Part shown: positions 25,431 through 25,477 of the stretch, in pieces
How positions within the stretch are numbered: position 1 is the stretch's first letter
Layout: the number at the start of each line of letters is the position of its first letter
Source: Bacteroidales bacterium
Lineage (GTDB): Bacteria > Bacteroidota > Bacteroidia > Bacteroidales > ML635J-15
Direction: 5' to 3'
Length of the DNA: 38,004 bases
Assembly: GCA_028686735.1 (NCBI GenBank)
Contig: JAQUBO010000016.1
Location: 1-38,004 of the forward strand
The notes under the pieces: model-generated
Databases searched by the model: none
Told to the model about the DNA's origin: nothing
Seen by the model: only the letters and a program-made list of their open reading frames with translations
Program-made: the position numbers and the translations under genes

Positions 25431-25448
25431 TTGTTATAATATTAACAT
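25431..25448. promoter_or_regulatory. Candidate Rex operator 1: TTGTTATAATATTAACAT
   Basis: Matches TTGTTA-N6-TAACAA at 11 of 12 half-site positions; upstream of a run that encodes Rex. Confidence 0.6.
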
Positions 25449-25465
25449 TGTTTATTAAATAACAA
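25448..25465. promoter_or_regulatory. Candidate Rex operator 2: TTGTTTATTAAATAACAA
   Basis: Matches TTGTTA-N6-TAACAA at 11 of 12 half-site positions; shares one base with operator 1 and lies between putative -33 and -7 elements. Confidence 0.65.
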
Positions 25466-25477
25466 TTATTATATTTG
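25448..25477 (+). promoter_or_regulatory. Bacteroidetes-type promoter (TTG-N19-TATATTTG) of the hyd run
   Basis: TTG 25448-25450, TATATTTG 25470-25477, ATG at 25498. Confidence 0.6.

Follow-up and report, generated by a model that had tools for sequence, protein, structure and literature searches.

We analysed a 38,004-nucleotide stretch of a Bacteroidales genome (contig JAQUBO010000016.1, referred to below as the window) that includes a run of hydrogenase-related genes on the forward strand. The first gene of the run is hydC (25498-25944), encoding a NuoE-like 2Fe-2S thioredoxin-fold subunit (PF01257, 3.3e-37). It is followed by hydB (25946-27856; PF01512 and PF10589), for a NuoF-like FMN/NADH subunit with 2x4Fe-4S, and by a hydA-like gene for a divergent, putative [FeFe]-hydrogenase catalytic subunit (27861-29495; PF02906, 1.7e-39). 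Next are genes for an HsfB-like sensor, a histidine kinase with a hydrogenase domain (29500-31488; PF02906, HisKA and HATPase_c), a response regulator consisting of a receiver domain only (31491-31883; PF00072) and a hybrid of receiver and histidine kinase (31876-32994; PF00072, PF00512 and PF02518). The run also contains rex (32998-33633; PF06971 and PF02629), which encodes the redox-sensing repressor that is the predicted ligand of the operator described here. No DNA-binding domain was found in the response regulator (31491-31883). A MerR-family gene (24477-25346, reverse strand; PF13411) lies divergently upstream of the run.

The HydA of the window falls well below the NCBIfam group A and A6 cut-offs, and its TDCPATK corresponds to TSCSPGW in the genome's group A6 HydA (L098). 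Around rex are two hydrogenase-domain sensor-like proteins (29500-31488 and 36110-37975, one of them a histidine kinase), along with the receiver protein and the receiver-kinase hybrid; this region appears to encode the sensing of H2 together with that of NADH.

The rex product has an N-terminal winged helix (PF06971, 2e-14) and a Rossmann NAD(H)/CoA-binding domain (PF02629, 8.7e-18), both above cut-off, and matches the solved Rex structure 2vt2 in the PDB at 2.2e-35. It passes three curated NCBIfam models, all named redox-sensing transcriptional repressor Rex, with 205, 195 and 175 bits (cut-offs 126, 138 and 130, respectively). The GxGxxG nucleotide-binding loop reads GMGHLG. Alignment with the Thermotoga maritima protein identifies R15, Y97 and D189 as the counterparts of Arg16, Tyr98 and Asp188, the NADH switch triad of Thermus aquaticus Rex (PMC6125430), and all 21 window-type Rex sequences (E < 1e-60 to the window Rex) retain Arg15, Tyr97 and Asp189. 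Most of the other Rex-family proteins of the order belong to a Bacteroides type with Ala/Ser, Asp and Ser in place of the Arg-Tyr-Asp switch and with VAKDLS in the recognition helix, versus VRRDIM in the window type. They are found at loci L044-L047 and L049-L051 (G041, G032, G053, G051, G059, G058 and G055) and L219-L222, and the genomes that encode them also include G092, G133, G168 and G200. Library models may still name these proteins Rex; judging by their switch residues, they may not sense NADH.

Upstream of hydC lie two 18-bp palindromes, TTGTTATAATATTAACAT at 25431-25448 (predicted Rex box 1) and TTGTTTATTAAATAACAA at 25448-25465 (predicted Rex box 2). Either box agrees with TTGTTA-N6-TAACAA at 11 of 12 positions, and base 25448 belongs to both, exactly as a preliminary description of this DNA had placed them. 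Both have the form of a Rex operator, an 18-bp palindrome of two TTGTKA-type half-sites at 6-bp spacing. From centre to centre the boxes are 17 bp apart; for the inner half-sites the distance is 5 bp. Because each box is palindromic and the boxes abut, the 35 bp at 25431-25465, to which no strand is assigned, make up one palindrome with four half-sites and its centre at 25448. We annotate this stretch as a predicted composite double Rex operator on the basis of its sequence, a genome scan, its conservation and its expected frequency. The preliminary description took the boxes for separate sites of a single promoter, whereas the comparisons below show one conserved unit, common to at least four operons of this genome.

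The genome-wide motif scan that had been proposed as a check came out divided: the single box stays at background, while the abutting pair marks only hydrogenase-type operons in this genome. Single boxes with ≤1 mismatch number 88 in the 4.25 Mb of the genome, against 103 for the reversed pattern that served as control, and boxes with ≤2 mismatches number 17 in the window against a mean of 9.7, a mild excess only. Single 1-mismatch boxes also fall inside coding sequence, at 27872-27889 (the start of hydA) and 33888-33905 (ribF), and are probably background. The 35-bp composite TTGTTANNNNNNTAACANTGTTANNNNNNTAACAA at ≤3 mismatches is found at four places (each with 0-2 mismatches), and the reversed control at one. 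A first-order Markov model of the window predicts 0.27 chance occurrences in 4.25 Mb at ≤3 mismatches, 0.015 at ≤2 and 0.0006 at ≤1; at this last threshold the composite occurs twice. No composite with ≤1 mismatch was found in 398 other genomes drawn across the phylum (399 with the window's own), and the reversed control was also absent from them. A class-wide scan of 297 genomes recovered the abutting pair only in G338 besides the window's own genome. G338 belongs to another family of the class (f95), carries the pair upstream of a fused hydC-hydB and encodes a window-type Rex. G202 and G233 also encode a window-type Rex, and no pair at ≤2 mismatches was found in them.

All four composite places in the window's genome are upstream of [FeFe]-hydrogenase-type operons. 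Place A is the operator of the window, in front of hydC-hydB-hydA-sensor kinase-response regulator-kinase-rex. Place B (C96:10789-10823, 0 mismatches) precedes genes for a 128-aa subunit, for which no Pfam match was found, and a NuoF-like protein, an operon named hydABC-type here. Place C (C96:8073-8107) is upstream of a DRTGG-HATPase-DRTGG-PHP-HATPase cluster, and place D (C393:15709-15743, minus strand) is upstream of hydC-NuoF-HydA. The HydA at place D scores 871 bits, above the cut-off of 765, with the NCBIfam model of the NADH-dependent group A6 [FeFe] hydrogenases.

Two features of these neighbourhoods were noted in passing. The DRTGG cluster, whose first HATPase is anti-sigma-like (L016 8140-10509), adjoins the hydABC-type operon and lies between two double operators; the versions in L117 and L119 additionally include a protein with a hydrogenase domain. 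Another conserved element, TTATTTAGAATnnTTAnAAATTa, stands directly upstream of the double operator (L126-L147, ~190-130 bp before the hydABC-type gene) and is retained in genus mates that have neither the window-type Rex nor the double operator. We take this element to resemble a Fur/PerR-type box.

The distribution of the operator was compared with that of Rex in 61 genomes, made up of the window's own and those of relatives from the same genus, family and order; a window-type Rex is encoded in 21. The composite at ≤2 mismatches was found in 18 of the 21 and in none of the 40 without such a Rex (Fisher p=1e-12); because the genomes share descent, p-values of this kind overstate the number of independent events and are descriptive only. 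All 50 composite places found at this threshold in the 61 genomes are in genomes that encode a window-type Rex, and 48 of them head hydrogenase-associated operons (types A-D), usually 5-150 bp before the first gene. Of the remaining two, one (L083 4001-4035, G043) precedes a glutamate dehydrogenase gene by 38 bp and the other (L120 4001-4035, G052) an M28 peptidase gene by 78 bp; they are possibly extra regulon members or false positives.

We also picked orthologous promoters by protein, not by pattern, and scored the upstream 300 bp for the composite at ≤3 mismatches. The operator was present at 14 of 16 hydC-type, 12 of 16 hydABC-type and 13 of 13 DRTGG-cluster promoters in genomes with the window-type Rex, versus 0 of 14, 0 of 14 and 0 of 17, respectively, in genomes without it. 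The operator is therefore present where the window-type Rex is encoded and absent at orthologous promoters elsewhere, as expected of a Rex operator. Conservation had been named as a check in the preliminary description, and hydC orthologues from different genera and families indeed have the same operator at the same upstream position, the pair occurring only where a window-type Rex is encoded. The 17-bp register is kept at 39 of the 45 Rex-positive promoters found by protein, and the operon classes that carry the operator otherwise have little flanking sequence in common. The pair is not obligatory, because at a few Rex-positive promoters we found one box (G054 and G037) or none (upstream of the hydABC-type gene in G035 and G036). 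As had been noted from the window, Rex is encoded inside the run headed by the double operator, and rex lies 7.5-7.9 kb downstream of the operator on the same contig in 12 genomes; feedback is therefore a conserved prediction.

An alignment of 51 operator sites shows conservation of all four half-sites, with the inner TAACA-N-TGTTA nearly invariant and the central TAACANTGTTA (positions 13-22) as the best-conserved stretch; the sites were selected at ≤3 mismatches, which inflates the absolute conservation and leaves the contrast between positions unaffected. Some half-sites in the relatives read TTGTGA, half of the established Rex consensus TTGTGAANNNNTTCACAA (PMC6391272). One such half-site, of the kind in the Firmicutes consensus (PMC6391272), is present in class D (C393-type) operators. 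In class A operators, position 23 is almost always T in place of A (TTGTTT), base 25453 of the window included. This T is not seen in the other operator classes and is possibly a promoter constraint.

The promoter elements proposed earlier for hydC are all in place on the forward strand: TTG at 25448-25450 (putative -33 element), a 19-nt gap and TATATTTG at 25470-25477 (putative -7 element). The latter has the form TAnnTTTG, the consensus of the Bacteroidota sigma-A box (PMC9723704). A scan for sigma-70 promoters, a type wrong for this phylum, gave 72 against 66 expected and hence no signal. Among 14 hydC orthologues, TAnnTTTG follows the operator by 4-8 nt in 11, and the TTG of box 2 and TAnnTTTG keep their spacing (TTG-N19/20-TAnnTTTG) in the same place in 8, including the window, which agrees with the repressor position suggested previously. 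In these 8 of 14 class A sites the TTG is at operator position 18 and is followed by N19-20-TAnnTTTG; box 2 therefore fills the space between the -33 and -7 elements. Rex operators overlap or adjoin the promoters of NADH-related metabolic genes, and at hydC the TTG-N19-TAnnTTTG overlaps box 2.

Promoter geometry is different in the other classes. In class B (hydABC, C96-type) the operator lies shortly before the putative -33 element; most sites have the promoter motif starting a fixed 7 nt after the operator. In class D (C393-type) no TAnnTTTG was found between the operator and the start codon. The operator is phased to the promoter within a class and not between classes. Because the geometry of class B and of the C393 class differs, occlusion of a single promoter is too simple a model for all of them; at the promoter of the window, occlusion is the likely mode.

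On these comparisons, the 35-bp element very probably serves as a double operator for the window Rex, whose gene belongs to the same run and lies 7.5 kb further downstream. A Rex operator might also work with one dimer at a time, or with one box to spare, if the abutting layout came from promoter overlap or inheritance and not from cooperation. The boxes that stand alone at the Rex-positive promoters of G054 and G037 are perfect or near-perfect, which fits such a site, and two dimers bound to abutting boxes on one face of the helix could hinder each other sterically. The constancy of the 17-bp register across classes with little common flanking sequence and the conservation of all four half-sites speak against it, and we regard binding by one dimer as rather unlikely. 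Less probable by far is a site for another regulator, co-inherited with Rex, that recognises the central palindrome TAACA-N-TGTTA or all 35 bp. The centre is the best-conserved part of the alignment, as such a regulator would predict, yet Rex-type boxes without the centre stand alone at Rex-positive promoters, the TTGTGA half-sites fit Rex, and no DNA-binding protein besides Rex was seen in the conserved operon, where the response regulator is receiver-only.

The palindromes could also belong to the divergent MerR-family gene, which borders the same intergenic region and is closer to them than any other regulator gene. We rejected this gene as the operator's regulator on its distribution, which does not follow that of the operator: four genomes (G011, G026, G029 and G030) have the operator and no detectable MerR relative, three (G001, G009 and G019) have the MerR gene without the operator, and the operator is also found at loci far from any MerR gene. 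A role for the MerR protein here is extremely improbable. Palindromes can arise by chance in AT-rich intergenic DNA; the region around the operator is 85% AT, and the single boxes do occur at background frequency. The composite, on the other hand, exceeds its expectation at ≤1 mismatch, is missing at the same threshold from the other genomes of the phylum-wide set and tracks Rex. A chance origin of the abutting pair is refuted by this tracking, by the orthologous promoters and by the phylum-wide scan, and we give it practically no weight.

Returning to the double operator for Rex, we infer that two dimers bind at once and cooperatively, that the effect is repression and that NADH releases it. 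NAD+-bound or apo Rex dimers would occupy both boxes, one dimer each, presumably on different faces of the helix because the centres are 17 bp (~1.6 turns) and the inner half-sites 5 bp apart. In the window, bound Rex would cover the -33 element and the spacer between the -33 and -7 elements, and initiation would be blocked. When the NADH/NAD+ ratio rises, NADH would close the Rex dimer and Rex would leave the DNA. The NADH-linked hydrogenase genes and rex itself would then be expressed, and newly made Rex would reset the switch. The same operator would put three more hydrogenase-related operons under the same control. More broadly, the functional Rex operator of this clade may be the 35-bp double site, on which two dimers bind cooperatively in a fixed geometry to give a steep NADH switch that turns on a hydrogenase-centred regulon together; we judge the chances of this proposal to be about even. 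The predicted double operator gives a specific, testable answer to the question of how NADH is sensed for the control of hydrogenase expression in some Bacteroidales that metabolise H2.

Rex control of hydrogenases is already known in Firmicutes and Thermotoga, and autoregulation of rex is known in Caldicellulosiruptor bescii. The C. bescii Rex binds upstream of [FeFe]-hydrogenase genes, regulates its own gene and responds to NADH (PMC6391272), and the T. maritima Rex regulon includes hydrogen-production genes (PMC8836258). Both proteins belong to the same family as the window Rex and share its switch residues, with one exception, a Met in place of the Arg in T. maritima (PMC6125430). The sites reported for them are palindromes of the TTGTGAANNNNTTCACAA type, 18-20 bp long, whereas the site described here is mostly TTGTTA-N6-TAACAA, is doubled in a fixed 17-bp register and occurs in Bacteroidota, at TAnnTTTG promoters. 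More than one Rex site per promoter, as predicted for the window, has been described in two other species. The ldh1 promoter of Staphylococcus aureus has two sites (-160 and -218), ~58 bp apart, that give two shifted bands (PMC3544828). In Streptococcus mutans the rex and adhE promoters have two sites each and rex is autoregulated, the significance of the two sites being called unclear (PMC3441419). Unlike the boxes of the window, the ldh1 sites do not abut, and we found no fixed register described for the sites of either species. We found no report of an abutting, fixed-register double Rex operator in the literature searched, the coverage of which is incomplete, and earlier reports are possible. 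If true, cooperative double-site binding would be a mode of Rex action not described, in that literature, for the reported single or widely spaced sites. We likewise found no study of a Rex regulon in Bacteroidota in the literature searched, which is absence of evidence; our prediction would extend the Rex regulon to this phylum, with a strict double-site design. Within the phylum, the Bacteroides-type Rex-like proteins have the same Pfam N-terminal and Rossmann domains as the window Rex, but the Arg-Tyr-Asp switch is missing from them, their recognition helix differs and the genomes that encode them lack the double operator. The comparison thus sets a predicted NADH-competent Rex apart from the commoner Bacteroides-type protein.
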